Assembly (NCBI GenBank): GCA_947600065.1
Contig: CANQFZ010000001.1
Span: 99,375 to 163,374 of the forward strand
Reading direction: 5' to 3'
DNA length: 64,000 bases
Source: an uncultured Clostridia bacterium
GTDB lineage: Bacteria > Bacillota > Clostridia > Oscillospirales > Ruminococcaceae
Below the pieces are notes generated by a model, which ran no database searches, was not told the origin of the DNA, and saw nothing but the letters and a program-made list of their open reading frames with translations. How positions within the stretch are numbered: position 1 is the first letter of the stretch; every line of letters starts with the position of its first letter. Made by a program: the position numbers and the translations under genes. Positions 45,153 through 63,004 of this stretch are shown here, one piece after another.

Positions 45153-46853
45153 TTAGCAGCAGCCGTTGTCATCGCCGCCGTGACCTGATTTTTTCTTATT
45201 TACTGCAATGAATATCACAACGCCTACGACAATAACTACGCCTACAATTGCAACTATTATCTTCGGCAGGAGATTATCATCCTGAGTTTCGGTCTCGGTC
45301 TGCGCGTTGCTGTCGGAAGAACTGTCCGCTGAAGAAGCTGTGCTGTCGGAATTTGTGCTGTCAGTTACGGTTTCATTCGGAGCAGCGCCCGATGTTTTAT
45401 AGCTGTTTATAACGCTTTCGGTTGCCGTTGTATAATCCTCGTGATTTTTGTCGCTTCCTATGTAATCTTCGCTTGTTTCATCAAGCACATACATTTTCTC
45501 GACATATCCGAGAATGGGAGCGTCATGCCCGTTTTCGTCAACGACGTCTTTGTTGTATGCGAAGAAATACGGAACTTGAAGTTTGTTTGCTATGACCTTT
45601 GTATTTTCATCGGCGGGGTCGGAAAGATAGTAAATATAGTTTCCGCTTTCGATCGTGTATTCGGTTTCAATATTGCCAAGATACTCGTTTACAAGGTCAA
45701 CGTACAAATTTGCGAATACATTTTCGCTGTCACGGATATGAATATCTCCCTCATAACCCCAGAATTTCTTTGCGTACCCGCCGTCAAACTTGGTATCAAA
45801 ATTATAGATGGTCACATTGTTTTCGACAGCGTAATCATTGATAAGGTCAATGACCGCCTGCGTATTTCCGCACCACGAACCGCCGAACAAGATGAGATAA
45901 TCCCCGCTTTGATTTAACAGCCATTGAAGCTGTTTATAAGTAAGCGTCTGAATGTTTATTTTATCGTCTTTTTCAAAAAGCGTCCTGCCCGATTTTTCAT
46001 TGTAAGCTAGACGGATATAATCTGCGTCCGTAAACGAGGACAGCTGAACCTTGTCGCTCCCTGTTCCGATGTGGCTGAAGATCGCATTGTTAAGCTGTTC
46101 TTCATAATCGGTCACACGAGTTGTGTCGTCCTGAGTTTTGCTGTTTGTAAACAGATCCTTGCCGCCGTTTGCGTCACGGTACAGCATTTTTTCAAAGCCG
46201 TATACTATCGGATATTTTTCGCCTTCTACACTTTCACCCGCGTTATTGACGGTGTTGTCCTTGTTATAGAGGAAAAGGAACGGCACCTGGACTTTCGGAA
46301 CAGTAACGTCCTTGCCCTCGGAATTTGTATAGGTAAGCGCGCTTTCGCTGTCAGCCTTATACTCTACCCAGTCGTTTAAATTCGTAAGATAGCGCGTTAC
46401 TAATTCGCCGTAAAGGTAATTGTAAGCCGCGCCGCTTTTGTCCGAACCGTTTGTTTCGCGGATATGCGTGTCGCTGTTCGTGCCGTCAAGACGGAAATCA
46501 AGATTGTAAACAGTATCAACGCCCGCCGCTTTTGCCGCGTCGTTTATGTAATCAATTACCGCCGTTGTGTTGGGGCACCACGAGCCGCCGAACAGTATAA
46601 GATAGTTGCCCTCCTGTTGGAAAAGGTAAACAGCCTCTTCCCATGTAATGCTCTGGAAAACCGAATTTTCATCTCCGAGATTAGCATAATCGGCGTTGTA
46701 ATAGGCTTTTCCCGCATCGTAATCTGAACTTGACGACCCGTCAGCCGCCGCAGAAACGAGCGGGAACGCAGCGGCAAGCACCAGCGCCGCTATTGCCCAA
46801 AACAGTATCGCAAGCCGTGATGCGGACTGCTTTTGTGATCTTATTTTTGACAT
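45153..46853 (-). CDS. secreted, membrane-anchored protein with two thioredoxin-like domains
   Basis: Signal peptide; LILFGGSWCPNTTAVIDYIND and LILFGGSWCGNTQAVIDLIND repeats; C-term TM and KKKSGHGGDDNGCC. Confidence 0.75.
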   Translation of the reverse strand: MSKIRSQKQSASRLAILFWAIAALVLAAAFPLVSAAADGSSSSDYDAGKAYYNADYANLGDENSVFQSITWEEAVYLFQQEGNYLILFGGSWCPNTTAVIDYINDAAKAAGVDTVYNLDFRLDGTNSDTHIRETNGSDKSGAAYNYLYGELVTRYLTNLNDWVEYKADSESALTYTNSEGKDVTVPKVQVPFLFLYNKDNTVNNAGESVEGEKYPIVYGFEKMLYRDANGGKDLFTNSKTQDDTTRVTDYEEQLNNAIFSHIGTGSDKVQLSSFTDADYIRLAYNEKSGRTLFEKDDKINIQTLTYKQLQWLLNQSGDYLILFGGSWCGNTQAVIDLINDYAVENNVTIYNFDTKFDGGYAKKFWGYEGDIHIRDSENVFANLYVDLVNEYLGNIETEYTIESGNYIYYLSDPADENTKVIANKLQVPYFFAYNKDVVDENGHDAPILGYVEKMYVLDETSEDYIGSDKNHEDYTTATESVINSYKTSGAAPNETVTDSTNSDSTASSADSSSDSNAQTETETQDDNLLPKIIVAIVGVVIVVGVVIFIAVNKKKSGHGGDDNGCC

Positions 46854-46882
46854 TATAATTCCTCCAAAATAATTTTTATCTG

Positions 46883-47401
46883 TCAGCAAAGCTCTATTTC
46901 TTCTGCGGGTTCGGGACTGCCTGTATTCTGCGAAGCGTTCGCGCCGCCGTTTGTATATTTACTTTCAAGAGCCGTCAGATCATCGTAATTGCTGACATTT
47001 TTACATTCGCCCGTAGAGCAGTATTCGTCAAAGCTTTTGCGGGCAAGCTCGATATATTCTTTTATCGTTGCCTCGTCCTCGCCGTTTTTATCGGCAAGAT
47101 ACGCGGCTTTTATCGCAAGCCGAACGTACTCGAATTTTGCTTCGGATAATTCATCGGCGTTTGTGACCTTGCTTTGCAGGGAAAGATTAGGGTCAAGCTC
47201 CCCGTAATATTTCAGCGCAAGGTCTATCTTTCCCTTGCTGTCGTCGGAAAATTCAACCGTGCCTATCGTGTCGATAGCATTTACCGTTCTGCTCACCGAA
47301 AGGTTTACGGAAACAATGCTCAGCACTAAAAATAAAGCTGCCGGAATTACCAATACTATCGTGAATTTTACTGCCGTACTTGTTTTGGTTTTGCCTGCCA
47401 T
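46883..47401 (-). CDS. membrane-anchored hypothetical protein
   Basis: N-terminal TM; co-oriented with transporter and Trx-like gene. Confidence 0.55.
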   Translation of the reverse strand: MAGKTKTSTAVKFTIVLVIPAALFLVLSIVSVNLSVSRTVNAIDTIGTVEFSDDSKGKIDLALKYYGELDPNLSLQSKVTNADELSEAKFEYVRLAIKAAYLADKNGEDEATIKEYIELARKSFDEYCSTGECKNVSNYDDLTALESKYTNGGANASQNTGSPEPAEEIELC

Positions 47402-48851
47402 GTCTTATTCTCCTCCTCTTTATCAAAAACACTGTCGTCAAGCTGCCCCTCTTTGCGGGCAACAATAGCCGCCGATACTGCCGCGCAGGTCGCATTGTTA
47501 AGTGTTCTCGCCATATCCGATATAGTGTTTATCGGTATAAGCAGGACCACAGCTGCAATAGGCAGATCCAGCGCGCTGAACACAGCTACGGATGAAACGA
47601 TAGCAATTCCGGGAACCCCCGCGCTTCCGAGCGACAGCACAAGCGTTACTACGAGAGGACGCGCCCGAACCAAAAAAGGACGAGCCCCGCGCTTCCGAGC
47701 GACAGCACAAGCGTTACTACGGCGAGCAAAATGTAATTGCTTATTCCCCAGTCAAGCCCCGTTGCGTTTACAAAGAACATCACGAGCAGAACGGGCCATA
47801 CGCAGGTGCAGCCGGGCATTCCTATCGTAGTGCCGAGCGGGGCAGTGAAGTTTGCTACTTCCTCGCTTACGCCGACTTTGTTTTCCAGCGCGTCAATTGT
47901 CACGGGAAGCGTTCCTATACTGCTCTGAGTTGTAAACGCCGTCGCCTGTGCGCTGAAAATTTTCTTGAAGAATTTAACGGGATTTAGCTTTGCTGCAAAT
48001 TTAATAAGCACGCCGTTAAATATATACGCGTGGAAAAACGCTACTGCATAGATTATACCGACTAAGAGCAGCAATTGCAGAATAGTGTCTATGTCCGAGA
48101 ATATTGCGGCGGCGCTTGACGCTATCAGGCAGAGAACCGCATAAGGCGTAAGGTCGATAACAAACCTAAGTATTTTGAAAATGATCTTCTTTGTTGCTTC
48201 TACAAGATTTTTGAACGAAACGACCTTTTCTTCTCCCTCGCTTGAAGACACCCCGATATAAGCCAAAGCAATTGCCGCGGCGATTATGATTATCGCGACG
48301 ATATTGTTGTTTGCTATATCGCTTATGATGTTCGACGGGAACAAACCAAGCAAGGTTTGGTCAAACGATTGCTTTAAGCCGCCGTATGCCTCGACTGTAG
48401 AATCGCTTACAGTTGCTATGCCGTCAAACACCGTCGATTTATCCCAAAGTCCGAAGACCGAGCCTGCCGCAAGGCTCAGAACAATTGCTCCCGCCGCCGA
48501 TGCTAACAGCCAGAACACGGAGCGAACTCCTATTGATCTCACGGCTTGTTTGCTTTTGAGCGACACAAAGCTCGAAATTATAGAAACTATGATGATCGGC
48601 GCGGCAAGCGCGGTTATCACGTTTACATAAATATCGCCTATAAGCCCCACCCATACAAGATATGAATTGTTTTCGGACGCGAAAACTATCCCGACTATCG
48701 CGCCGAACACAAGAGCAATAAGCGTTACGATCGTGCGGTTTGTTTTCTTTGAAAGAAAATGCAGCAGCACAAATAACAGACCTACTATTGAAAGCGCAAA
48801 CAGCGCTATCCGGTTAATGCTTAATAAAAAATCCATTTTTGAAAAATGCAC
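47368..48851 (-). pseudogene. TcyP-like cystine/dicarboxylate:cation symporter, frameshifted near 47620-47725
   Basis: 48851-47649 frame ends abruptly after LVLSLGSAG; remainder (VPGIAIVSSVAVFSALDLPIAAVVLLIPINTISDMARTLNNATCAAVSAAIVARKEGQ) continues in another frame down to 47368. Confidence 0.8.
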
Positions 48852-49114: not shown

Positions 49115-50017
49115 CTATGAATTTTCTTTCAGATATTCCGCCGCTGACATTGCGGCATTTGCTCCGTCCGACGCCGCCGTTATTACTTGCCTCAGCTTTT
49201 TTGTCCTGATATCACCCGCGCAAAACAATCCTGCCGCTTTTGTTATTCCCGTTTCATCTGCTTTGATATATCCGTTTTCGTCCAGATCGACGATATTCCG
49301 CACTAGATCGGACGCGGGAGACATACCTATCGCTATAAAAACTCCGTCGAGAAAAAGCCTGCGCCCGCTGTCGAGCAATATTGAGCTTACGCGGTTTTCG
49401 CCCGTAATTTCGGTCACATTCGCGGGGGTTATTATCTCAATGTTTTCGCGCGATCTTATTTTAAGAACGCTTTTCTTTGAACCTCTGAATTCGTTTCTTC
49501 TATGAATTAGATACACCTTTTTTGCAATGTCGGATAAATACAGCGCGTCGTCAAGAGCCGTGTCGCCGCCGCCGATAACGGCTAGCGTCCTGCCGCGATA
49601 CAAAGCGCCGTCGCATATGGCGCAATATGAAACGCCCTTACCGACAAACTTTTCTTCTCCGCTTACATTCAGCCTTTTATGAGTCGCCCCCGCGGCATAG
49701 ATAACGGCTTTTGTTTCTATGACATCTCCGCTTTGGAGCGTGGTTATCCAAACGCCGTTTTTCTGTTCAAGGCTGACAGCCTCGCCCTCGAAAAACTCCG
49801 TACCGAAATTTTCCGCGTGTTCTCTGAATTTCTCGCCGAGGTCAAATCCGCTTATACCGCAAAGTCCTAAGTAATTATCCACCTGTGCGCTTTCGGCGAT
49901 CTGCCCCGTACCGAGATATTCCTTCTCTATAACGATAACGTCGAGATTTGCTCTTTTAGCGTACAAAGCCGCAGACAGCCCCGCAGGTCCGCTGCCTATT
50001 ATCGCAAGATCTTTCAT
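49115..50017 (-). CDS. thioredoxin reductase-like flavoprotein
   Basis: IIGSGPAGLSAALYAKRANLDVIVIEKEY; SYCAICDGALYRGRTLAVIGGGDTALDDALYLSDIA; GLFCAGDIRTKKLRQVITAASDGANAA. Confidence 0.92.
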   Translation of the reverse strand: MKDLAIIGSGPAGLSAALYAKRANLDVIVIEKEYLGTGQIAESAQVDNYLGLCGISGFDLGEKFREHAENFGTEFFEGEAVSLEQKNGVWITTLQSGDVIETKAVIYAAGATHKRLNVSGEEKFVGKGVSYCAICDGALYRGRTLAVIGGGDTALDDALYLSDIAKKVYLIHRRNEFRGSKKSVLKIRSRENIEIITPANVTEITGENRVSSILLDSGRRLFLDGVFIAIGMSPASDLVRNIVDLDENGYIKADETGITKAAGLFCAGDIRTKKLRQVITAASDGANAAMSAAEYLKENS

Positions 50018-50436
50018 GGCTCTCTTTCCTCTATAACTAATTCCTCACGCTGTGTTTCAGTGCCGTCAATGTGAAAAGAATTGAGCACGGGATTTTCCTT
50101 GTCCATAAGCGACAATATAAGATAACTCGCCGTTTTGTCATAGGCTAGGCGCTTGTCCTCTTCGGACGGTCTTGACGGGGAAGAGGGGTGAGAATGCCAG
50201 TTTCCGAGCGGCAAAAGCCCGCGCTCGCGCATATCACGAACGGCGGCTAATTGCTCCTTTGGGTCGAGCGAAAAATGCTCGTTCGACTTGTCAATATTGT
50301 TTAGCAAGTACACCTTTTCGATAATTTTGTCATTTCCCTCTGTTCTGCCTGCAATAAGCCCACAAGCCTCGTTCGGAAGTTCGGACAGAGCGCGGTCTAC
50401 TATTTTATAAAAATCGTCCTTTGATATTATTATCAT
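50014..50436 (-). CDS. JAMM/MPN (JAB) metalloprotease
   Basis: LPNEACGLIAGR; LPLGNWHSHPSSPSRPSEEDKRLA. Confidence 0.9.
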   Translation of the reverse strand: MIIISKDDFYKIVDRALSELPNEACGLIAGRTEGNDKIIEKVYLLNNIDKSNEHFSLDPKEQLAAVRDMRERGLLPLGNWHSHPSSPSRPSEEDKRLAYDKTASYLILSLMDKENPVLNSFHIDGTETQREELVIEEREP

Positions 50437-50445
50437 AAGTTTTCC

Positions 50446-51252
50446 TCACACGCCGTTACATTCTGCCTGCTCGTAATCCACAAGTTCGGTTATCGTGGGA
50501 TTGTCGCCGCACACCGCGCATTTTCCGTTCGGCTTGGGGAGTTTAATTTTACGGAACTCCGGTTTTAGCGCGTTAAACGTCAGCAAATATCCCGTAAGCA
50601 ATTCGCCCGTACCCGTTATGTACTTTATTGCTTCCATTGCCTGAAGACTGCCGATAATGCCGCCCATAGCGCCGATAACTCCCGCCTGCTTGCAGGTAGG
50701 CACAGCGTCCTTTGGCGGAGGCTCTTTAAACACGCATCTATAGCAGGGACCTTGTCCTGGAACGTAGGTCATAAGCTGACCTTGAAAGCGGATTATTCCT
50801 GCATGGCAAAACGGTTTCTTTGCCATAACGCACGCGTCGTTTATTAAAAATTTCGCGGGGAAATTATCCGTGCCGTCTATAATGAAATCATAGTCGCGGA
50901 TTATTTCCATTATGTTTTCCGAGGACACAAACTCGTGGTAGGTATTGACCGTGACATCGGGGTTCATTTTGTTTATAGTTTCCTTTGCGGACTGCACTTT
51001 GGGCTTTCCGACGTCCTCTGTCGCGTGAATGATCTGCCGCTGTAAATTCGACAGATCTACCTCGTCCGCGTCTGCAATTCCTATAGTTCCTACGCCTGCG
51101 GCGGCGAGATACATAGCGCAGGGCGCGCCCAGACCGCCCGCCCCGATTATCAGCACTTTTGCGTTAAGGAGCTTTTTCTGTCCTTTAACGCCTACTTCCT
51201 TTAAGATGATTTGCCGCGAATATCTTTCCAACTGTTCGTTAGAGAATGCCAT
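50446..51252 (-). CDS. MoeB/ThiF/HesA-type E1-like adenylyltransferase
   Basis: RYSRQIILKEVGVKGQKKLLNAKVLIIGAGGLGAPCAMYLAAAGVGTIGIADADEVDLSNLQRQIIH. Confidence 0.95.
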   Translation of the reverse strand: MAFSNEQLERYSRQIILKEVGVKGQKKLLNAKVLIIGAGGLGAPCAMYLAAAGVGTIGIADADEVDLSNLQRQIIHATEDVGKPKVQSAKETINKMNPDVTVNTYHEFVSSENIMEIIRDYDFIIDGTDNFPAKFLINDACVMAKKPFCHAGIIRFQGQLMTYVPGQGPCYRCVFKEPPPKDAVPTCKQAGVIGAMGGIIGSLQAMEAIKYITGTGELLTGYLLTFNALKPEFRKIKLPKPNGKCAVCGDNPTITELVDYEQAECNGV

Positions 51253-51457
51253 AGCTTCCTCCTCCCATAAAATACAAAAATTCCACGACATCTCCGTCGT
51301 GTAATTCAATTGATGAAAAGTTTTCGTTATCTGCAAACTCGTCATTTACCGATACCGTGATATAATCGGGATTTTCGATGTTTTCCTGTTTGATGAGCTC
51401 GGCTATAGTCAAGCCTTCGTTAAATTCCTTTGTTTCGCCCGCAACTATTATTTTCAT
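51239..51457 (-). CDS. ThiS/MoaD-type sulfur carrier with C-terminal extension GGG-SYGIL
   Basis: MKIIVAGETKEFNEGLTIAELIKQENIENPDYITVSVNDEFADNENFSSIELHDGDVVEFLYFMGGGSYGIL. Confidence 0.9.
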   Translation of the reverse strand: MKIIVAGETKEFNEGLTIAELIKQENIENPDYITVSVNDEFADNENFSSIELHDGDVVEFLYFMGGGSYGIL

Positions 51458-51467
51458 CTCATACCTC

Positions 51468-51785
51468 CTATTTGTTTTCGTCAATAAGGCGTTTAAGTTC
51501 TTCCTTTTTTTGCGCGCCAATAAACCGTCCGACCTCACCGCCGTTTTTAAACAGCAAAAACGTCGGCGTAGCGGCAATGTCGTATTTCTCGCAAAGGTCG
51601 GGTTCATACGCCGCATTTACTTTCGCAATGAAAACTTCGTCGGAGTATTGCTCGCTGAGTTCAGACAGTATCGGCGACATTCGCTTGCAGGGAACGCAGG
51701 TATCCGTGTAAAATTCCACAACGGAAAGCCCCGAAAACTTTAAGACCTTTTCGGCAAAATCGTCGTTTCCTATTCTTTGAGCCAA
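51468..51785 (-). CDS. thioredoxin
   Basis: VVEFYTDTCVPCKRMSPILSELSEQY. Confidence 0.92.
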   Translation of the reverse strand: MAQRIGNDDFAEKVLKFSGLSVVEFYTDTCVPCKRMSPILSELSEQYSDEVFIAKVNAAYEPDLCEKYDIAATPTFLLFKNGGEVGRFIGAQKKEELKRLIDENK

Positions 51786-51786
51786 G

Positions 51787-52032
51787 TTAATCGCCTACCT
51801 TTCTGACTAAAAGATCATATGTCCCGTCTTCGTTTTGGGTAAACTCCAGGATCTCGTGACATTCCTCTTTAAGACTTCTCGGCACGTTTTGCGCGGGCTC
51901 GCCGCTGTTCATGTGGACTTTAAGAATATCCCCCTCGTCCAGCTCGTCAAGAGCTACCTTTGTCTTTACAAACGTGACGGGGCAGTTTACATCGGTTATG
52001 TTTATCGTGTCGGTTATATTGTATTCGGACAT
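51787..52032 (-). CDS. TusA/YedF-like sulfurtransferase
   Basis: ITDVNCPVTFVKTKVALDELDEGDILKVHMNSGEPAQNVPRSLKEECHEI. Confidence 0.9.
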   Translation of the reverse strand: MSEYNITDTINITDVNCPVTFVKTKVALDELDEGDILKVHMNSGEPAQNVPRSLKEECHEILEFTQNEDGTYDLLVRKVGD

Positions 52033-52037
52033 TTTTA

Positions 52038-53276
52038 TCATTCCTTTCTATTTACGCTCTCTATCGCTTGTGTAAAATCCTCTATAAGGTCGCGGGCGTC
52101 CTCAATTCCCACGCTTATGCGGATAGTATCGTCATACACGCCCGCGTTTATTTTCTGCTCTTCGGTGCTGTTCAGATATATGGTTGACGCGGGGTGAATG
52201 ACGAGAGTTTTTGTGTCTCCGATATTTGTTGCATTCATCGCATATTTCAGGGCGTTCATAAGCGCATAGGCTTTCTTCTTTGAACCCGCTCTTAGTGTCA
52301 CTATCCCGCCGCCCTTACCGCCGAATTGCTTTTGGACTAATGGATAATACGGGTTGTTTGGGAGAGCAGGGTAGTTTACCTTTACGCCGATTATTTTCTC
52401 CAGCTCCTTTGCGAGCGTCAGAGCGTTTTCACAGATGCGTTCCACTCTTAGTGCAAGCGTTTCAACACCTAATAAATTCAGATATGCATTCATCGGAGAA
52501 AGACAGCCGCCGATGTTTCGCCATGTGTCGTTTTTAAGTCGCGCGGTAAACGCAAGTCTACCGTATTTTTTATAAGGCGCAAGTACGGGATATTTATCAA
52601 GATCCCACTTAAAATTCCCGCTGTCTACGATTATTCCGCTTATTGAGTTTCCACAGCCGTTTATGTATTTTGAAGATGAATGAATAACAATGTCCGCGCC
52701 GTATTCAATTGAGCGGATAAGATACGGCGTGGCGGTAGTAGCGTCTACTAAAAGCGGAATATTATTTTCGTGAGCAAGCTCCGATACGCTGCGAATATCC
52801 ATAACGTCAAGACAAGGATTTCCGATTATCTCGCCGAAGATCACCTTTGTTTTGTCGGTGATGTGCTTTTTTATCTCGTCAATAGTCATATGCGTTACAA
52901 ACTTAGTTGTAATGCCGTATTCTTTAAGGTCGCGGAACAAATCTACCGTTCCGCCGAACAGCCCTGCGCCTGCAATTATCTCATCGCCCGTGCTTAAGAT
53001 ATTCAAAAGTGCCGATGATATAGCCGCCATTCCCGATGAACAGGCGGTCGCGGCGCGTCCACCCTCAAGCTCGCAAATGCGCTTTTCAAAAGCGTCAACC
53101 GTAGGATTTGAGATTCTTGTGTAGGCAAAGCCCGCCGCTTTACCCGCGAACACCTTTTCGAGTTCTTCCGCGCTTTCATATGAGAACGCGCATACCTGGC
53201 TTATCGGCGGGAGAGTTGCGCCGTTTTGAGATCTCCCTGCCGATTTGCCGTGCAATAATTTTGTACAAAATTCCAT
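52038..53276 (-). CDS. metY: O-acetylhomoserine sulfhydrylase (MetY-like)
   Basis: PLP-dependent Cys/Met metabolism family: PTVDAFEKRICELEGGRAATACSSGMAAISSALL...DIVIHSSSKYINGCG. Confidence 0.88.
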   Translation of the reverse strand: MEFCTKLLHGKSAGRSQNGATLPPISQVCAFSYESAEELEKVFAGKAAGFAYTRISNPTVDAFEKRICELEGGRAATACSSGMAAISSALLNILSTGDEIIAGAGLFGGTVDLFRDLKEYGITTKFVTHMTIDEIKKHITDKTKVIFGEIIGNPCLDVMDIRSVSELAHENNIPLLVDATTATPYLIRSIEYGADIVIHSSSKYINGCGNSISGIIVDSGNFKWDLDKYPVLAPYKKYGRLAFTARLKNDTWRNIGGCLSPMNAYLNLLGVETLALRVERICENALTLAKELEKIIGVKVNYPALPNNPYYPLVQKQFGGKGGGIVTLRAGSKKKAYALMNALKYAMNATNIGDTKTLVIHPASTIYLNSTEEQKINAGVYDDTIRISVGIEDARDLIEDFTQAIESVNRKE

Positions 53277-53290
53277 ATCAAGTACCGTCT

Positions 53291-55030
53291 TTATATTGAT
53301 CTTAACACTCTTGCCAAAGTATCAATGTCTTCAAAAGTGTTATACAGTGCCAAAGTAGGGCGCACAACGCCCTCAAGCCCGTAGTGCCGAAGAATAGGCT
53401 GTGCGCAGTGATGACCCACGCGCACGGCGATCCCGTTTTGATCGAGAATTTGCCCTACGGTATCATTTGACACGCCGTCTATTACGAAAGAAAGCGCGCT
53501 TGATTTAGAAGGAGCAGTTCCGACAAGATGAAGTCTGTTTATCTTTGCTAATTCTTTCATTCCGTAACTTACAAGTTCGTGTTCATATGCGCTGACGGCG
53601 GGCATACCGATCGAGCTAAGATATTCGAGCGCCGCACCTAAACCCACCGCGTCGCCGATACTGCCTGTTCCCGCCTCAAATTTATTCGGCGCGGGATTGT
53701 ATATCGTTCTTTCAAACGTAACGTCCTTTATCATATTGCCGCCGCCGTGATAGGGCTTTGCGGCTTCGAGAACGTCCTTTTTGCCATAGAGCGCGCCTAT
53801 TCCCGTGGGAGCGTATATTTTATGTCCCGAGAATACGAAAAAGTCAGCGTCAAGCGCGGAAACGTTCACGGGGATATGTGCCACAGACTGCGCCCCGTCT
53901 ATCATTATCCGAACTCCGTGCCTGTGCGCAATTGCAATAAGCTCGGCTACGGGCGTTATCGTGCCTAATACGTTTGAAACGTGCGTTACGGACACAAACT
54001 TTGTGCGTTTGGTAAACAGCTTTTCGTATTCGGAAAGTTTAAGCTGCCCCGAATCGTCAACGGGAATTACCTTTATTACCGCGCCAGTTTCCTGTGCAAT
54101 GAGCTGCCACGGAACGATATTCGCGTGATGCTCCAAAAGCGAAACAATTATCTCATCGCCCGGCTCTAAAAGCGGCTTTACATAAGCCTGCGCCACGAGA
54201 TTTATACCCTCGGTCGTGCCTCTTACAAATATGATGTTATCCTTTGACGGCGCACCGATAAAGTCCGCGACGGTCTGACGAGCCTTTTCATATGCGTCCG
54301 TAGAACGTGCCGCCAACGTATGCGCTCCTCTGTGGACGTTTGAGTTTTCATGCTCGTAATAATAACTCAGCCTGTCTATAACGGCTTTCGGGCGCTGAGT
54401 AGTAGCGCCGTTGTCGAGCCATATAAGCGGATTTCCGTTTACCTTTTCGCGAAGAATAGGGAAGTCCTCGCGGATCTGTTCAAGCGTTTTCGTTCCGACA
54501 ACTATCCTCGTGTTGTTTTTCTGACCGCCCACGGTTTCAAAATTCACGCCTTTGTTATCCTTTTGCGGGATTACGTTGTTGTCATTCGCTGTTGTGCGGA
54601 CGTTTATGCTGTTGTTATCATCAGCCTGCGCCTGCGATACTACCTTTGGAGAAAACCCCGCGTTATCCGCGTCCTTGCTCGTATAATCTGTGGTCACATT
54701 TTCAAGCTCGCGAAAAGCTCCGCCTATGTCGGTGAAAGCGGGAAACTCGCTGCTTACACCCGAAAGGCTGTCGAAATTCAGCTCTTTTCCGAGCTGTCCG
54801 AGAATGTTCTCATAATCGCTTGTTCCAAGCAAGGAAACGGCTTTGTTCGCGGCGGTATTGATGATCCCCGCGTCGCCCGTTGTCACGAGTTTTTGAATGC
54901 CGTCGGCGCACACATCGGGTTCAAAAATGCTCCCGCCCAGATCGCCAAATAGGTCGTTAGCAAGCGTTTGGAGTTCGTGTTCCGAAGGCAAGCCCGAATA
55001 ATCGAAAACATCAAAATTATTCGTAGTCAT
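53291..55030 (-). CDS. SufS/CsdA-type cysteine desulfurase with about 200-aa N-terminal low-complexity extension (encapsulin cargo type)
   Basis: C-term NGNPLIWLDNGATTQRPKAVIDRLSYYYEHENSNVHRGAHTLAARST; FSGHKIYAPTGIGALYGKK; VRVGHHCAQPILRHYG; N-term disordered N/D/G-rich. Confidence 0.93.
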   Translation of the reverse strand: MTTNNFDVFDYSGLPSEHELQTLANDLFGDLGGSIFEPDVCADGIQKLVTTGDAGIINTAANKAVSLLGTSDYENILGQLGKELNFDSLSGVSSEFPAFTDIGGAFRELENVTTDYTSKDADNAGFSPKVVSQAQADDNNSINVRTTANDNNVIPQKDNKGVNFETVGGQKNNTRIVVGTKTLEQIREDFPILREKVNGNPLIWLDNGATTQRPKAVIDRLSYYYEHENSNVHRGAHTLAARSTDAYEKARQTVADFIGAPSKDNIIFVRGTTEGINLVAQAYVKPLLEPGDEIIVSLLEHHANIVPWQLIAQETGAVIKVIPVDDSGQLKLSEYEKLFTKRTKFVSVTHVSNVLGTITPVAELIAIAHRHGVRIMIDGAQSVAHIPVNVSALDADFFVFSGHKIYAPTGIGALYGKKDVLEAAKPYHGGGNMIKDVTFERTIYNPAPNKFEAGTGSIGDAVGLGAALEYLSSIGMPAVSAYEHELVSYGMKELAKINRLHLVGTAPSKSSALSFVIDGVSNDTVGQILDQNGIAVRVGHHCAQPILRHYGLEGVVRPTLALYNTFEDIDTLARVLRSI

Positions 55031-55970
55031 GATACTCGCCCACCTCAACATCTTCCAATACCGCAATGGCGTCGTCCGCTAAGATCGCCGCAGAGCAGTA
55101 AAGGCTCAGCAGATAGGACGCCACGCCTTTGTCGTCAATGCCCCTAAAGCGCACCGACAGACCTCTCGACTGTTCGTTTTTCATACCCGCCTGATAAAGT
55201 CCGATAACGCCGCGCTTAGCCTCTCCCGTGCGCAGCAGAAGAATGTTGGTCTTTCCGCTTTGGCTCTTGGGATTTTTCAGCCCGTCTACAAGCAGCTTAT
55301 CGGTAGGGATTATCGGTATTCCTCTCCATACTACGAAAGTGCCGCCCGCGATGTTTGTTGTTACGGGCGGAACTCCGCGTTTCGTGCATTCTCTTTCAAA
55401 CGCCGCTATAGCACGCGGGTGAGCGAGGAAGAATGACGGTTCTTTCCATACCTTTGTGATAAGCTCGTCAAGGTCGTCGGGAGTGGGCGCGCCGTTGCTT
55501 TGAACGGGCTGTATCCTCTGCGAATTTGCAACATTTTTGAGCAAGCCGTAATCATCGTTATTGATAAGCTGGCTTTCCTGACGTTCGCGCAGGCTCTCAA
55601 TGCCGAGCGCAAGCTGTTCTTTTACTTGATCGTAGGGCGCGCTGTAAACGTCCTCTATGGCGGTATTAACGTTAATGATCGTTGAAATGGAATTTAAACG
55701 GTATTCGCGCGGTTCTTCCTCGTATTGTATGTAACCGTCGGGGATAATGTCGGACTTCTTTGTCTGACTGCACAAAACGTCAAGCGGAGTATCTCCCTCA
55801 ACGACCTTGTTAACGCGGTAAATTCCCGTCGGCAAGCCCTTAAATTCCAGTAGCTTTGTCAGCCATTTCGGGGTAATTGCGCCGTACTGTGGCTTTGTTT
55901 TGTTTACGTCCGCCAGATTATAGGCGGCGCGTGCGCCTAATGCCTTGATTGCTTGTTCTTCATTTGCCAT
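55017..55970 (-). CDS. family 2A encapsulin (SrpI-like) shell protein
   Basis: ALGARAAYNLADVNKTKPQYGAITPKWLTKLLEFKGLPTGIYRVNKV...FFLAHPRAIAAFERECTKRGVPPVTTNIAGGTFVVWRGIPIIPTDKL; adjacent to cysteine desulfurase. Confidence 0.9.
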   Translation of the reverse strand: MANEEQAIKALGARAAYNLADVNKTKPQYGAITPKWLTKLLEFKGLPTGIYRVNKVVEGDTPLDVLCSQTKKSDIIPDGYIQYEEEPREYRLNSISTIINVNTAIEDVYSAPYDQVKEQLALGIESLRERQESQLINNDDYGLLKNVANSQRIQPVQSNGAPTPDDLDELITKVWKEPSFFLAHPRAIAAFERECTKRGVPPVTTNIAGGTFVVWRGIPIIPTDKLLVDGLKNPKSQSGKTNILLLRTGEAKRGVIGLYQAGMKNEQSRGLSVRFRGIDDKGVASYLLSLYCSAAILADDAIAVLEDVEVGEYHDYE

Positions 55971-56006
55971 TGTTTTATTCTCCTTAAATAATTTTTTATT
56001 TGAAAG

Positions 56007-57452
56007 CTATGCTTTCTCATTTGCAAAAAATAGTTCCTTTGCCGCATTCACACCGCCGCTCAGACTTAACATTCGCCCCTCATATCCCGCGTCTTTCAGC
56101 GTATTTATCGCCAGGATACTGCGCTTTCCCTCCGTGCAGATAAAAACGGTGTCTATATCGGGGTTTAGTTCCTTTTGCCGTCTTGCAAGCTGTCCTATCG
56201 GAATAACAACGGCATTCGGGAAACGGCGAATTGCTCTCTCGTGCGGTTCTCTGATGTCAATTATAGTAAGCGGCTCGCCGCTGTCCATTCTCGCCTTTAG
56301 TTCCGCGGGCTCGATAGTTTCAACGGAATTTTCTTCCTCGCACGGTTTCAGTCCGCAGAAATCTTCGTAGTCAAATTCGGTTATTTCTGTGATAGACGGC
56401 GATTTCCCGCAGACAGGGCAATTTTCGTCCTTGCATATATTCAAGACCGACGTGCGAAAATTCCAAGTGTCCATGACAAACAGCTTTCCCGCTAAAGTTT
56501 CACCGCCGCCTATAAGCAGTTTTAAGACCTCGTTTGCCTGTATACTGCCGATAATTCCCGAAAGGGGGCTTATCGTCCCGCCTGCCGAGCAAGTAGGAAC
56601 TAATCCCGCGGGCGGCGGGGCAGGGAACTGACACCGAAAACACGGACTTCCGTTTTGCACGTCGAAAACGCTTACCTGTCCCTCAAATTGATAAATCGCC
56701 CCGAACACAAGCGGCTTTTTGCAAAGTACGCACGCGTCGTTAATAAGATAGCGCGACTGATAATTGTCCGTACAGTCGACTATTACATCATATCCGTCTA
56801 TTATCCCCGCTATGTTGTCGGCGGTTATGCGCTCGTTTATTGTTTCTATCTTGACATTAGGATTTATGGCTTTTATCTTATCCCTTGCGGACGCGGTTTT
56901 TGGTCGGTTCACGTCTTTCGTCGTGTGTATGACCTGACTTTGCAGATTTCCAAGCGAAACCTCGTCAAAGTCGGCTATACCGAGCGTTCCCACTCCCGCC
57001 GCAGCCAGATACTGCACGACGGGAGTGCCGAGCGCCCCCAATCCTATAATGAGAACTTTCGCTGCTTTAATGCGCTTTTGCCCTTTTACTCCGATATCCC
57101 GCAGCATAAGGTGTTTGTTATAGCGTTCAATTTCCTTGTCGTCAAGCGTCACCGCTTTGCGCCGTTCGTCGGAGATAACGCTCACTGCGGGCGCGCCTCC
57201 CGCGATCACAGGCAGCAGCAAAATGCGGTCGCCGTCTTTTAAATCCGCATCGTTATGTACTCGCGTATCATTTACAAAAACGCTGACAAACGGCTTAATA
57301 TTGCCGTTATCCTCAAAAATTTTCTCACATTCGGGATATTTTTCGCGCAAGTCGCAAAGCGCCTCGCGGACAGTATTTCCCTCGACCTCGACTTCGGCTT
57401 TATGCTCTGCGAATATGCGCAGAGTCGCCGAAATATACAACGTGTTCTTCAT
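56007..57452 (-). CDS. MoaD/ThiS - ThiF/MoeB (E1) - rhodanese triple fusion
   Basis: N-term MKNTLYISATLRIFAEHKAEVEVEG...LLLPVIAGG; E1 RYNKHLMLRDIGVKGQKRIKAAKVLIIGLGALG; rhodanese TIDIREPHE..FICTEGKRS. Confidence 0.92.
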   Translation of the reverse strand: MKNTLYISATLRIFAEHKAEVEVEGNTVREALCDLREKYPECEKIFEDNGNIKPFVSVFVNDTRVHNDADLKDGDRILLLPVIAGGAPAVSVISDERRKAVTLDDKEIERYNKHLMLRDIGVKGQKRIKAAKVLIIGLGALGTPVVQYLAAAGVGTLGIADFDEVSLGNLQSQVIHTTKDVNRPKTASARDKIKAINPNVKIETINERITADNIAGIIDGYDVIVDCTDNYQSRYLINDACVLCKKPLVFGAIYQFEGQVSVFDVQNGSPCFRCQFPAPPPAGLVPTCSAGGTISPLSGIIGSIQANEVLKLLIGGGETLAGKLFVMDTWNFRTSVLNICKDENCPVCGKSPSITEITEFDYEDFCGLKPCEEENSVETIEPAELKARMDSGEPLTIIDIREPHERAIRRFPNAVVIPIGQLARRQKELNPDIDTVFICTEGKRSILAINTLKDAGYEGRMLSLSGGVNAAKELFFANEKA

Positions 57453-57891
57453 GCTGTTTCCTGCTTTCTGTTAAGAGTTGTTCTTCCTTACAGATATTTG
57501 TACCGATAATTTTTTCAAAGCTCGCTATCTTAAAATATAGCCCGTCTGCACCCTCGTTTGCCGAAACAATGGGATATGAATGATCGTAAAGCATATACCG
57601 CTCGTCAGTTTTTGAGAGGACTGCGGCGCAGTCCGGATGCGAATGATAAAAACCTACTATCATAAGGTCATGAGTAAAAGCAAAAAGTTCTATCTTATGG
57701 ATAACAAGCGGATCTAAAGCAAAATACGCCGACTTATCTCTTGCGCTTTTATTTTCCAAACGCAGTGCTTGTTCTGCAAAGCGCTTATTGCTTATTTGCT
57801 TTCCGAGCAAAACGCCGCAGCATTCGTTCGGGTATTCACACTCCGCATGAGAAAGAAGCGCCCTTGTAACGTCATCATTAAGTACGAGCAT
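57400..57891 (-). CDS. JAMM/MPN (JAB) metalloprotease, second copy
   Basis: YPNECCGVLLGK; MIVGFYHSHPDCAAVLSKTDERY. Confidence 0.88.
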   Translation of the reverse strand: MLVLNDDVTRALLSHAECEYPNECCGVLLGKQISNKRFAEQALRLENKSARDKSAYFALDPLVIHKIELFAFTHDLMIVGFYHSHPDCAAVLSKTDERYMLYDHSYPIVSANEGADGLYFKIASFEKIIGTNICKEEQLLTESRKQHEEHVVYFGDSAHIRRA

Positions 57892-57909
57892 AAAAATTAC
57901 CTGTAAAAA

Positions 57910-57966
57910 TAAAAAAGCCCGAGTTTTCTACAGAACACGTTCTGTAAAAACCTCCGGTTTTCCGGT
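57910..57966 (-). terminator. hairpin between YezD-like ORF and JAB gene (terminator/attenuator candidate)
   Basis: TTTTTACAGAACGTGTTCTGT...CCCGAG..TTTTTTATTTTT on minus strand. Confidence 0.45.
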
Positions 57967-58115
57967 CAGTTTAATCTGATTTTATCTGTTTTTTCTACTT
58001 GAATTACTCTTCCGTCTTGAATTATAGCCGTCACGGTACCGTATTTCGTTTCCCGTATCAGCCTGTCTATAATTTCAAGATAGTTATCTTTTTTCACATC
58101 ATCATTTTTTGACAC
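57966..58115 (-). CDS. YezD/DUF2292-like small protein (49 aa, GTG start, not in ORF track)
   Basis: MSKNDDVKKDNYLEIIDRLIRETKYGTVTAVIQDGRVIQVEKTDKIRLN; G-rich RBS upstream. Confidence 0.8.
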   Translation of the reverse strand: MSKNDDVKKDNYLEIIDRLIRETKYGTVTAIIQDGRVIQVEKTDKIRLN

Positions 58116-58174
58116 AATATCTGCACCCCCCCTCGGCTTTTGTTATGATTATAGTATAACATAGTCAGGAGTGA

Positions 58175-58212
58175 TTGTCTAATACATAATAGGTATGCCG
58201 AGCTATAGATTT
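58175..58212 (-). promoter_or_regulatory. shared 38-bp regulatory motif upstream of encapsulin/sulfur operon
   Basis: TTGTCTAATACATAATAGGTATGCCGAGCTATAGATTT; on minus strand TTAGACA then about 17 nt then TATACT. Confidence 0.7.
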
Positions 58213-58235
58213 AATTTATAACTCCGGGCGTGTTT

Positions 58236-59174
58236 TTAAACCTTGTCGATAGCCTTATACTTTTCAAGATAACCCCGTATTTCCTCAATATAAAGCTTCC
58301 CCATTGCGCTTATAGGCATATTTTTCCTTGTGATATAGCCTATGACCATTTTGTCGGCGTCGTCGGGCGTTTCGTATTCAAACGGAACTGCGACAAAATC
58401 CGTGCCGTTTAATTCCTCGCAGATTATCCCCGAACACAGCGTATAGCCGTTCAGTCCTATCATGAGATTTAACATTGTGGCTCGGTCGTTGGCTTTTATC
58501 GTCCTTGCATAATCCTTTGTGCCTAAGATCTCCTCCGCAAAATAGAACGACCCGTTGTCGCCCTGTTCAAATGACAGGCAAGGATATTCGTTAAGTTCCT
58601 CAAATCGTATTGAACTGCGCTTTGCGAGCGGGTGTTCCCGCCATAGATATACATACGCGTCGCATACGGCAAGCTCGTGAAAATCAAGATCCTTTGTATG
58701 CAGAAGCTTCATTATGACCGCGCGGTTGAAGTCGCTGAGATAAATTATCCCGATCTCGCTTTTACCTGTATTAACGTCGTCTATTACCTCTTTGGTCTTG
58801 GTTTCTCTGATTGCAAAATCGTATTCAGCGGTGTTGAATTTCTTTGCTATCTCTACAAAGCTTTTTACGGCAAACGAATAATGCTGAGTTGAAATGCCGA
58901 ATTTCTTCTTGAGATTTCCAAGCTTTCCGTACTTCTGGAGGATCTCTTCATACTGCTGATACAACTGTCTTGCGTACAGCAAAAACTCTGTACCCTCGTT
59001 TGTAGGTGTAACGCCTCTGCCGCTGCGGTAAAAGATCGTTATCCCAAGCTCCTTTTCAAGCTCCTTTACAGAGCTTGTAAGCGACGGCTGCGACACATAC
59101 AGAATTTCCGATGCTTTATTGAGAGACCCCGTTTCGGAGATCGTAATAATATAGTGCAGTTGTTGTAAAGTCAT
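58236..59174 (-). CDS. LysR-family regulator
   Basis: MTLQQLHYIITISETGSLNKASEILYVSQPSLTSSVKELEKELGITIFYRSGRGVTPTNEG. Confidence 0.93.
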   Translation of the reverse strand: MTLQQLHYIITISETGSLNKASEILYVSQPSLTSSVKELEKELGITIFYRSGRGVTPTNEGTEFLLYARQLYQQYEEILQKYGKLGNLKKKFGISTQHYSFAVKSFVEIAKKFNTAEYDFAIRETKTKEVIDDVNTGKSEIGIIYLSDFNRAVIMKLLHTKDLDFHELAVCDAYVYLWREHPLAKRSSIRFEELNEYPCLSFEQGDNGSFYFAEEILGTKDYARTIKANDRATMLNLMIGLNGYTLCSGIICEELNGTDFVAVPFEYETPDDADKMVIGYITRKNMPISAMGKLYIEEIRGYLEKYKAIDKV

Positions 59175-59525
59175 AACATCCCTCCTTTTCAAAACGGCTA
59201 TAAATTATTATAATACTATTTACCTATTATGGCAATATGAATAATGAAATAATTTAAAATTATTTAGCTTTTGAGGTAATTGAGGCGAGAAGTAGATGGT
59301 AAAAAATAAGAGGTAAAAAGTTTAGCCCCTTGTCTCTTTTTTCTTTAATAAGGCAAACAACCTTTTGTCTAAAACTCTAACCTCTAGAAGGGGAAAAGTG
59401 CGGTTCGCTAATTCGGCGTTTTATGCTCCATATACGGCAACTTGCGCAAATTCGCTTGAACTTCTCCAAAAAATCTGCTGCAATAAACTTAGTTTCCAAT
59501 ATATCCTCTGGGCGGAGGTGCTGAT

Positions 59526-61252: not shown

Positions 61253-62869
61253 TTATGGTGCGTTCAGTTTTCCGATAAACCTGTAAAATATCTCAATTTG
61301 CTGATATGTTCTGCCGTCATCGGATTTTTCCTTGTGGTGAACCACAATTTTGTCAATCAGCTCGTTGAGGATTGCTGCGTCAAGCTTTTCAACGTTTGTA
61401 TACTTGCGTATCACATTGATGAATTTAACCGCATTGTCGGAATTGCTTTTCAGCTTATCAAGCCGCACTGAAAGTTCCGTGAGCGACTGCCTGATTTCTG
61501 CCTGTTCGGTTTCGTATTCGCTAGCCATACGCTCATAACGGCTGTCGGGTATTTTGCCAAGCGCGTTGTCCTCATACAGCTTACAGAGTATCTTGTCAAG
61601 CTCCGTACAGCGCGCGAGTTTGTGTTCATATTCTCCGTTAAGCTGTTTAAGAGTTTTGTCGGTCATTGACTGATATTTTCCGCCGAGAAACGCGCTGAAC
61701 TTCTTGCTGTCTGCGCGGTATCTGAACAGATTTTTGCGAATATCTTCAAGCACTATATTGTAGACAGTATCGAATGTAATATAGTGCGACGCGCAGTATT
61801 CCTTTCCGTGAGTCTTGTACATCCGGCATGAATACGAGCCGTGATATGTCCCGTCCCTGCGCTGTTTTTGAGAGTACGTCAGACAATGTCCGCAATCCGC
61901 GCAGTAGAGCAGTCCCGCAAACATCTGTATTTCGCCTGTTTTTGCGGGGCGGTGTTTCGCGCTTAATATCCTGTGAACCGTGTCCCAAAGCTCCTTTGTG
62001 ATGATAGGCTCGTGGCAGTTTTCGGCGACTATCCATTCCTCGCGCGGGTTCTTTACCTTTTCCTTGCTCTTTATGGATTTGTTGCGGCGTTTGCCGTATA
62101 CAAGCTGTCCGAGATAGACCTCGTTGTCCAGAATTGCGCGTATTGAGGTAACGTGCCAGTCGAATTCCTTACGCCAGTAATCGCTTTTGAAGTAGTCGGG
62201 ATTGTTTTTGTTGAAGTAGGCGATAGGCGTGAGTACCTTTTCCTCGCGGAACATTTTAGCCATTTTGTTGTAGCCGATGCCCTCGGCAGCAAGCCTGAAT
62301 ATCCGCTTTACAACCTGCGCGGCAGGCTCGTCAACTATCAGATGATGACGGTCGGCAGGATCGATTTTATAACCGAACGGTGCTTTTGAGCCGATGAATT
62401 GTCCGTCGCGGGCTTTGGCTTTTTTCGCCGCTTTCGTTTTCTTGGAAACATCACGGGCGTACATTTCATTCACGACATTCTTTATAGGGAAGAGCAGATC
62501 GTCGCCGTTTACCAGCGAATCATAATTGTCGTCTGCCGCGATAAACCGAATGTTGTTGTCTGTAAACTCCCGCACATACATTCCCGTTTCAACATAGTTT
62601 CTTCCGAACCGCGAGAGGTCTTTGACGACTACAAGGTCGATTTTCCCGTTTTGAATATCTTTGTACATTTGCCTGAAAGCGTCTCTGTCGAAGTTAGTGC
62701 CGCTGCATCCGTCGTCGCAGTAGAATGTGTAGTCCGTTATCGAATGATCCTTGCAGTATTGCTCCAGCAGAACTTTTTGCGTTTCGATACTCACGCTTCC
62801 GCCAAAGTTGCCGTCGTCCACTGAAAGCCTGCAATATAATGCTGCCTTGTAATTCTGTTTTCTTGTCAT
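61253..62869 (-). CDS. large serine recombinase
   Basis: ALYCRLSVDDGNFGGSVSIETQKVLLEQYCKDHSI; VVVKDLSRFGRNYVETGMY; recombinase + zinc ribbon LLYCADCGHCLTY. Confidence 0.95.
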   Translation of the reverse strand: MTRKQNYKAALYCRLSVDDGNFGGSVSIETQKVLLEQYCKDHSITDYTFYCDDGCSGTNFDRDAFRQMYKDIQNGKIDLVVVKDLSRFGRNYVETGMYVREFTDNNIRFIAADDNYDSLVNGDDLLFPIKNVVNEMYARDVSKKTKAAKKAKARDGQFIGSKAPFGYKIDPADRHHLIVDEPAAQVVKRIFRLAAEGIGYNKMAKMFREEKVLTPIAYFNKNNPDYFKSDYWRKEFDWHVTSIRAILDNEVYLGQLVYGKRRNKSIKSKEKVKNPREEWIVAENCHEPIITKELWDTVHRILSAKHRPAKTGEIQMFAGLLYCADCGHCLTYSQKQRRDGTYHGSYSCRMYKTHGKEYCASHYITFDTVYNIVLEDIRKNLFRYRADSKKFSAFLGGKYQSMTDKTLKQLNGEYEHKLARCTELDKILCKLYEDNALGKIPDSRYERMASEYETEQAEIRQSLTELSVRLDKLKSNSDNAVKFINVIRKYTNVEKLDAAILNELIDKIVVHHKEKSDDGRTYQQIEIFYRFIGKLNAP

Positions 62870-63004
62870 ATAACTCCTTTCCCGGCAGCGGATCGCTTGG
62901 TCTTGCAACGGACAGTATACCACAACCGTCCGCACAAGTCCAGCGTTTTTTTCTCTGCCGTCAAGATTTTTTCGCGGAAATCACATCTTAAGGGTAGGGG
63001 ACTC

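Follow-up and report, generated by a model that had tools for sequence, protein, structure and literature searches.

The window, by which we mean the whole 64,000-nucleotide stretch of DNA analysed here, contains a gene that places a Ubl domain in front of an E1 and a rhodanese domain within a single chain. An E1 needs a free C-terminal carboxylate to act on, as established for MoaD and MoeB, and a Gly-Gly lying inside a chain must therefore be exposed. The locus thus raises the question of whether the Ubl is released, by which protease, and which E1 would then activate it. We consider it probable that the fusion is a sulfur-carrier precursor, which is cut by a JAMM protease after Gly86 to give a Ubl that is converted to a thiocarboxylate for cysteine or homocysteine synthesis.

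Architecture of the fusion and its operon

The first-pass annotation described a single-chain MoaD-like Ubl/E1/rhodanese fusion with an internal Gly-Gly, and the open reading frame and Pfam bear this out with all three domains above cut-off: ThiS at residues 8-86 (40.6 bits, cut-off 22.5), ThiF at residues 111-347 (264.9 bits) and rhodanese at residues 382-471 (46.7 bits). The reading frame starts with ATG behind an AGGA-type ribosome site. The ThiS/MoaD-like Ubl ends in LLLPVIAGG at residue 86, as had been read, and Gly85-Gly86 is followed directly by APAVSVISDERRKAVTLDDKE. By its domain order, ThiF and then a rhodanese with the active Cys439, the fusion belongs to the E1-rhodaneses of the MoeZ/MoeBR/Uba4 type. 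The best fold match of the predicted structure is Uba4 (6yub, 438 columns), and MoeB (1jw9) is covered at a target TM of 0.96. AlphaFold2 folds the Ubl and E1 confidently; pLDDT falls below 50 over three or more residues only at residues 83-89, the stretch that holds the Gly-Gly, and 286-291, the E1 crossover loop.

Table 1. Features of the fusion and of the operon around it, listed from high to low coordinates
Feature	Position	Strand	Basis or remark
LysR-type regulator	58236..59192	(-)	
Small DUF2292 (YezD-like) protein	57966..58115	(-)	upstream of JAMM2
JAMM2 metalloprotease (Prok-JAB)	57400..57891	(-)	60.2 bits, cut-off 25; motif
Ubl-E1-rhodanese fusion, 481 aa	56007..57452	(-)	ORF and Pfam; Ubl aa 1-86, GG aa 85-86, E1 (ThiF) about aa 103-350, rhodanese aa 382-471
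Gly85-Gly86 codons, predicted cut boundary (P-x-[IV]-A-G-G / A)	57195..57200	(-)	alignment; AlphaFold2 low-confidence linker
Family 2A encapsulin shell protein (SrpI type)	55017..55970	(-)	NF041162, 474.9 bits, cut-off 380
Encapsulin-cargo-type cysteine desulfurase, long N-terminal extension	53291..55030	(-)	SufS subfamily, above cut-off
O-acetylhomoserine/O-acetylserine sulfhydrylase-like PLP enzyme (MetY-like)	52038..53276	(-)	
TusA-like sulfurtransferase	51787..52041	(-)	
Thioredoxin	51468..51785	(-)	
Set-2 ThiS-like carrier	51239..51457	(-)	Pfam; end FMGGG-SYGIL (capped past GG)
Set-2 E1 (MoeB/ThiF type, without rhodanese)	50446..51252	(-)	Pfam and residue alignment
Set-2 JAMM1	50014..50436	(-)	HSHP-x6-S-x2-D intact
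Thioredoxin-reductase-like flavoprotein	49115..50017	(-)	

The second Ubl/E1/JAMM set that had been noted in the same operon is present, with its ThiS, E1 and JAMM genes; the encapsulin and desulfurase between the two sets had been overlooked. Since the shell, desulfurase, MetY-like, TusA and thioredoxin genes share one strand between the sets, the whole is a sulfur operon built around an encapsulin, and all needed parts lie within about 8.8 kb. The pair by which family 2A encapsulin operons are recognized, a SrpI-like shell and a cysteine desulfurase cargo gene, is found here; against the cargo model NF041166 the desulfurase scores 774 bits, just under the cut-off of 800. The operon occupies window positions 49115-59192, and related forms recur across phyla. 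An interrupted palindrome, ACAGAAC-AC-GTTCTGT, lies between the DUF2292 and JAMM2 genes (57920-57960) and is a possible operator or hairpin. MoaE gave no match in the window's genome, which is 98.6% complete, and this rules out a molybdopterin role for the Ubl in the manner of MoaD and MoeB. Several PALP-family enzymes are encoded elsewhere in that genome.

The Gly-Gly junction across relatives

A genome scan returned 80 named loci. Gut anaerobes supply most of them, with Lachnospiraceae, Ruminococcus, Fibrobacter, Treponema, Desulfovibrio, Thermoguttaceae, Succinivibrionaceae and Synergistaceae among the groups represented. With whole-genome loci included, 89 loci from many phyla were parsed, 67 fused and 22 with Ubl and E1-rhodanese split. 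A few of these are the same locus reached twice, and the protein counts therefore refer to sequences made non-redundant at 90% identity (45 fused and 21 split, 66 proteins). A plasmid search yielded, among the matches listed, nothing beyond generic E1-rhodaneses and a single pair of adjacent MoaD and ThiF genes. The general gene order is cysteine synthase (or MetY), JAMM, Ubl, E1-rhodanese, encapsulin, desulfurase. Where there is room to see, an encapsulin gene comes next in 61 of 62 fused loci, so that the fusion is not a chance arrangement, and in 15 of 19 split loci. In the E1-rhodanese tree the fusion arose at least twice, once in a large clade and once in the Azoarcus-labelled locus L108. 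The outgroup root, with the outgroup on a long branch, makes the split form the older state; L093 and L115 also sit on long branches, and their exact placement is not relied on.

Of the 66 proteins, 65 retain the motif P-x-[IV]-A-G-G (44/45 fused, 21/21 split), and in the alignment variability jumps abruptly past the Gly-Gly. Among 44 fusions, which continue into a linker, 41 have Ala or Ser as the next residue; the split proteins can have almost anything there and stop 0-25 unrelated residues later (GG*, GGK*, GGRR*, GGCTA*, GGNNGVRTY*). Because the motif is conserved while the sequence beyond it varies, the part past the Gly-Gly is disposable. The set-2 ThiS proteins, in the window and 28 relatives (29/29), all carry 1-6 extra residues after GGG (Q, R, C, A, SYGIL) and would need trimming too. 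The Gly-Gly is thus normally capped in this operon family, and the fusion carries the longest such cap. In PF14453-ThiF fusions, taken as a control class, the junction has no Gly-Gly in any of five cases, which counts in favour of cleavage here. We infer, with good support from this comparison, that the Ubl is released by a JAMM cut after Gly86.

Fusions lacking the Gly-Gly had been named in advance as evidence against cleavage, and one was found among the 45 (L115, PAMAGE). Its E1 catalytic Cys has become Asp as well, and its genome, a draft assembly, gave no Prok-JAB match. Loss of the Gly-Gly in a JAMM-less genome fits the cleavage model, though as a single case in a draft assembly it is suggestive only. 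In the same Thermoguttaceae locus (L115:3-1562) a cysteine-rich repeat, CDSCCDAD, lies between Ubl and E1.

The candidate protease

JAMM2 has an intact motif, E23...H83-S-H85-P-x6-S93-x2-D96, that conforms to the JAMM/MPN+ pattern E...H[ST]HP-x6-S-x2-D, and its fold matches Rpn11 and PfJAMM1. The overlap of about 50 nt between the JAMM gene and the fusion start measures 53 nt (57400-57452). So long an overlap occurs in the window's genus only (also in genome G095); elsewhere the JAMM gene mostly ends between a few nt inside the Ubl and some tens of nt before it. As relatives outside the genus mostly have abutting genes, the overlap is incidental, and it was dropped as a functional signal. Across the relatives HxHx7SxxD is kept in every JAMM ORF listed, and E-x-C-G, with the catalytic Glu, was found in all of them except that of L043.

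The earlier proposal that the adjacent JAMM cuts after the Gly-Gly gains comparative support, and JAMM2 is the likely cutter on that basis and the best candidate; its supposed tie to the fusion does not hold. Split loci have JAMM just as fused ones do, and its task there would be the trimming of short tails; its presence is therefore not due to the fusion.

That the cut is made by another protease, JAMM1 or an unrelated housekeeping enzyme, is a rather unlikely reading. Six fused loci (L033, L041, L067, L079, L087, L090) have a JAMM1-type gene and none at the adjacent position; some fused loci thus keep only the set-2 type of JAMM, and JAMM1 may perform or share the cutting. The work on MoaX, a naturally cleaved MoaD-MoaE fusion, did not identify its protease, which need not be a JAMM (PMC4326299). 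On the other side, JAMM2 lies closest in most loci of both kinds, fused and split, and it keeps its motif. Among 16 whole genomes, picked mainly for loci without an adjacent JAMM, 12 had a Prok-JAB match; the four without were G571 (locus L080, fused with Gly-Gly), G577 and G578 (both split) and G579 (L115). The Gly-Gly-bearing fused locus L103 (G576) has JAMM fragments only; G571 and G576 are draft metagenome assemblies.

JAMM2 might instead act mainly as a Mec-like hydrolase that strips an amino acid from its carrier, in which case it would process the fusion only incidentally or not at all. Split relatives, and many of the fused ones, have JAMM beside cysteine synthase, an operon class noted by Iyer et al. 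in 2006 (PMC1779556), but the window clade has lost the cysteine synthase neighbour and JAMM2 persists there. We regard this reading as improbable in its exclusive form; the two roles are compatible.

In the preferred reading, JAMM2 most likely, and possibly also JAMM1, would cut the fusion after Gly86 to give a Ubl with a free Gly-Gly end and an E1-rhodanese remainder. The freed Ubl would be adenylated and then take sulfur from the rhodanese persulfide to become a thiocarboxylate, which would feed cysteine or homocysteine synthesis through a cysteine synthase B-like enzyme in relatives and the MetY-like enzyme in the window. The encapsulated cysteine desulfurase would be the source or store of the sulfur, and JAMM may in addition detach the amino acid that the carrier holds. 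The E1 step has probably weakened in the window clade or been handed to the set-2 E1.

State of the E1 domain

The equivalent of MoeB Arg73, the arginine that contacts the ATP phosphates, is Ser172 in the window fusion, which leaves the set of ATP-site residues incomplete, while Lys86 and Asp130 are kept. All 29 proteins of the window clade have lost Arg73 (Ser, or Asn, Cys, Thr), but only rarely Lys86, Asp130, the zinc cysteines or the rhodanese Cys. Arg73 is retained in every split protein and in the other fused ones, such as the Ruminococcus-type fusion of L066. In yeast Tcd2 the corresponding Arg128Ala change lowers the product ratio by 91%, and Tcd1, with Thr at this position, is stated to be incapable of taking part in ATP activation (PMC13139853). 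Changes at G41 and Arg14 were set aside as signs of a dead E1, since Ala occupies the G41 position in human UBA1 (PMC12355090) and the Arg14 finger has been reported as dispensable (PMC13139853); only Arg73 was used. The fused E1 of the window is thus a member of its family by fold and doubtful as an active adenylating enzyme. With Arg73 lost, activation of the Ubl by its own fused E1, as first supposed, becomes doubtful for the window clade.

The set-2 E1 of the window has equivalents of Arg14, Arg73, Lys86, Asp130 and Cys187. An intact set-2 E1 occurs in 21 of 24 genomes with an Arg73-less fusion. Elsewhere in the main fused clade 14 of 16 genomes have a set-2 E1, and outside that clade none of six (five split, and L108). 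Set 2 is common to most main-clade fused genomes, from which it appears older than the loss of Arg73; it probably arrived with the fused clade, and its E1 could have taken over activation afterwards. More tentatively, and on balance unlikely, the fused E1 of the window clade is a pseudo-E1 that has ceased to adenylate, and the Ubl freed by JAMM2 is activated in trans by the set-2 E1, perhaps within a heterodimer of that E1 and the pseudo-E1-rhodanese. Tcd1 resembles the window E1 in keeping Lys and Asp and in having a short residue for Arg73, and it pairs with an intact paralogue (PMC13139853). Unlike the window system, Tcd1 and Tcd2 serve tRNA modification without a Ubl, and E1 pairing here is hypothetical. 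If correct, it would be a bacterial counterpart of paired active and inactive E1 subunits, serving an encapsulin sulfur store.

The same observations could mean that the fused Ubl is never released and is vestigial or structural, the free set-2 ThiS being the working carrier. Most fused genomes do have the second Ubl/E1/JAMM set, the window-clade E1 has lost Arg73, L115 illustrates where such decay ends, and the Gly-Gly of an uncut chain could be retained for binding. PF14453 ThiS-like-ThiF fusions, which also place the Ubl N-terminal to the E1 but have no Gly-Gly at the junction (absent in 5/5 controls), are evidently permanent; PF14453 has no match in the window genome, and the window fusion has the Gly-Gly and PF02597 instead. 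If the tail were vestigial, drift like that of L115 would be expected, yet [IV]AGG is kept in 28 of the 29 Arg73-less proteins and the HxH/S/D motif of JAMM2 wherever the gene is found. Absence of release is thus improbable too.

That the Gly-Gly codons serve as a Shine-Dalgarno sequence for an internal start, giving a free E1-rhodanese without proteolysis, is very improbable and was dropped as not conserved: GGAGGA codons do precede the E1 ATG in split relatives such as L034 and L109, and the window has a GGAGG with an in-frame GTG about 10 nt downstream of it, but within 12 codons past the Gly-Gly an in-frame ATG occurs in 0 of 44 fusions and any start codon in only 11, and the Ubl would stay unfreed. 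The double use of the Gly-Gly codons by some split relatives is seen at L034:10110-10130.

Relation to known systems

CysO-CysM-Mec+ of M. tuberculosis, QbsE/QbsD and HcyS/HcyD are JAMM-processed carrier systems, in which the JAMM acts on a thiocarboxylate carrier at its Gly-Gly end to remove a C-terminal extension or release an amino acid. By comparison, the extension removed here would be the whole E1-rhodanese. MoaX of Mycobacterium tuberculosis, the direct precedent, requires cleavage after Gly82 for activity (PMC4326299); there too a MoaD-like Ubl precedes its partner enzyme and the junction is Gly-Gly followed by a small residue, the cut being predicted in the window. Unlike in MoaX, the partner is an E1-rhodanese rather than MoaE, a JAMM gene is adjacent and a molybdopterin context is absent.

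Operons of ThiS/MoaD, E1-rhodanese, JAB and cysteine synthase form row 4c of Iyer et al. (PMC1779556). The same four protein types are found in the split and many fused relatives, and the split ones match that row; the window locus differs in its fused Ubl, its linked encapsulin and desulfurase, and a MetY-like enzyme in place of cysteine synthase. With family 2A encapsulin operons, near which rhodanese and cysteine-synthesis genes are enriched (PMC8049743, PMC8346489), it shares the SrpI-type shell and cysteine desulfurase cargo; a search of the main texts of these two papers by key terms gave no mention of a Ubl/E1/JAMM module. We found no report of the fusion or of its encapsulin tie in the main texts of the openly available literature, and the novelty is therefore provisional.

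If the preferred reading holds, a sulfur carrier is made at the N-terminus of the enzyme that activates it, and a dedicated protease of the ubiquitin type sets it free. Bacteria would then have a parallel to the cleavage of ubiquitin precursors after Gly-Gly. Family 2A encapsulins, for which no sulfur acceptor is established, would also be tied to Ubl/E1/JAMM chemistry. The natural series from split to fused, to Arg73 lost, to Gly-Gly lost offers a test bed for the hand-over of E1 function.

We also note three further reading frames in the window. A 578-aa frame (45153-46889) has no Pfam match; just past the operon, 47649-48851 encodes a Sodium:dicarboxylate symporter family transporter, possibly an amino-acid importer; and a 560-aa frame nearby (61253-62935) reads like a large serine recombinase.
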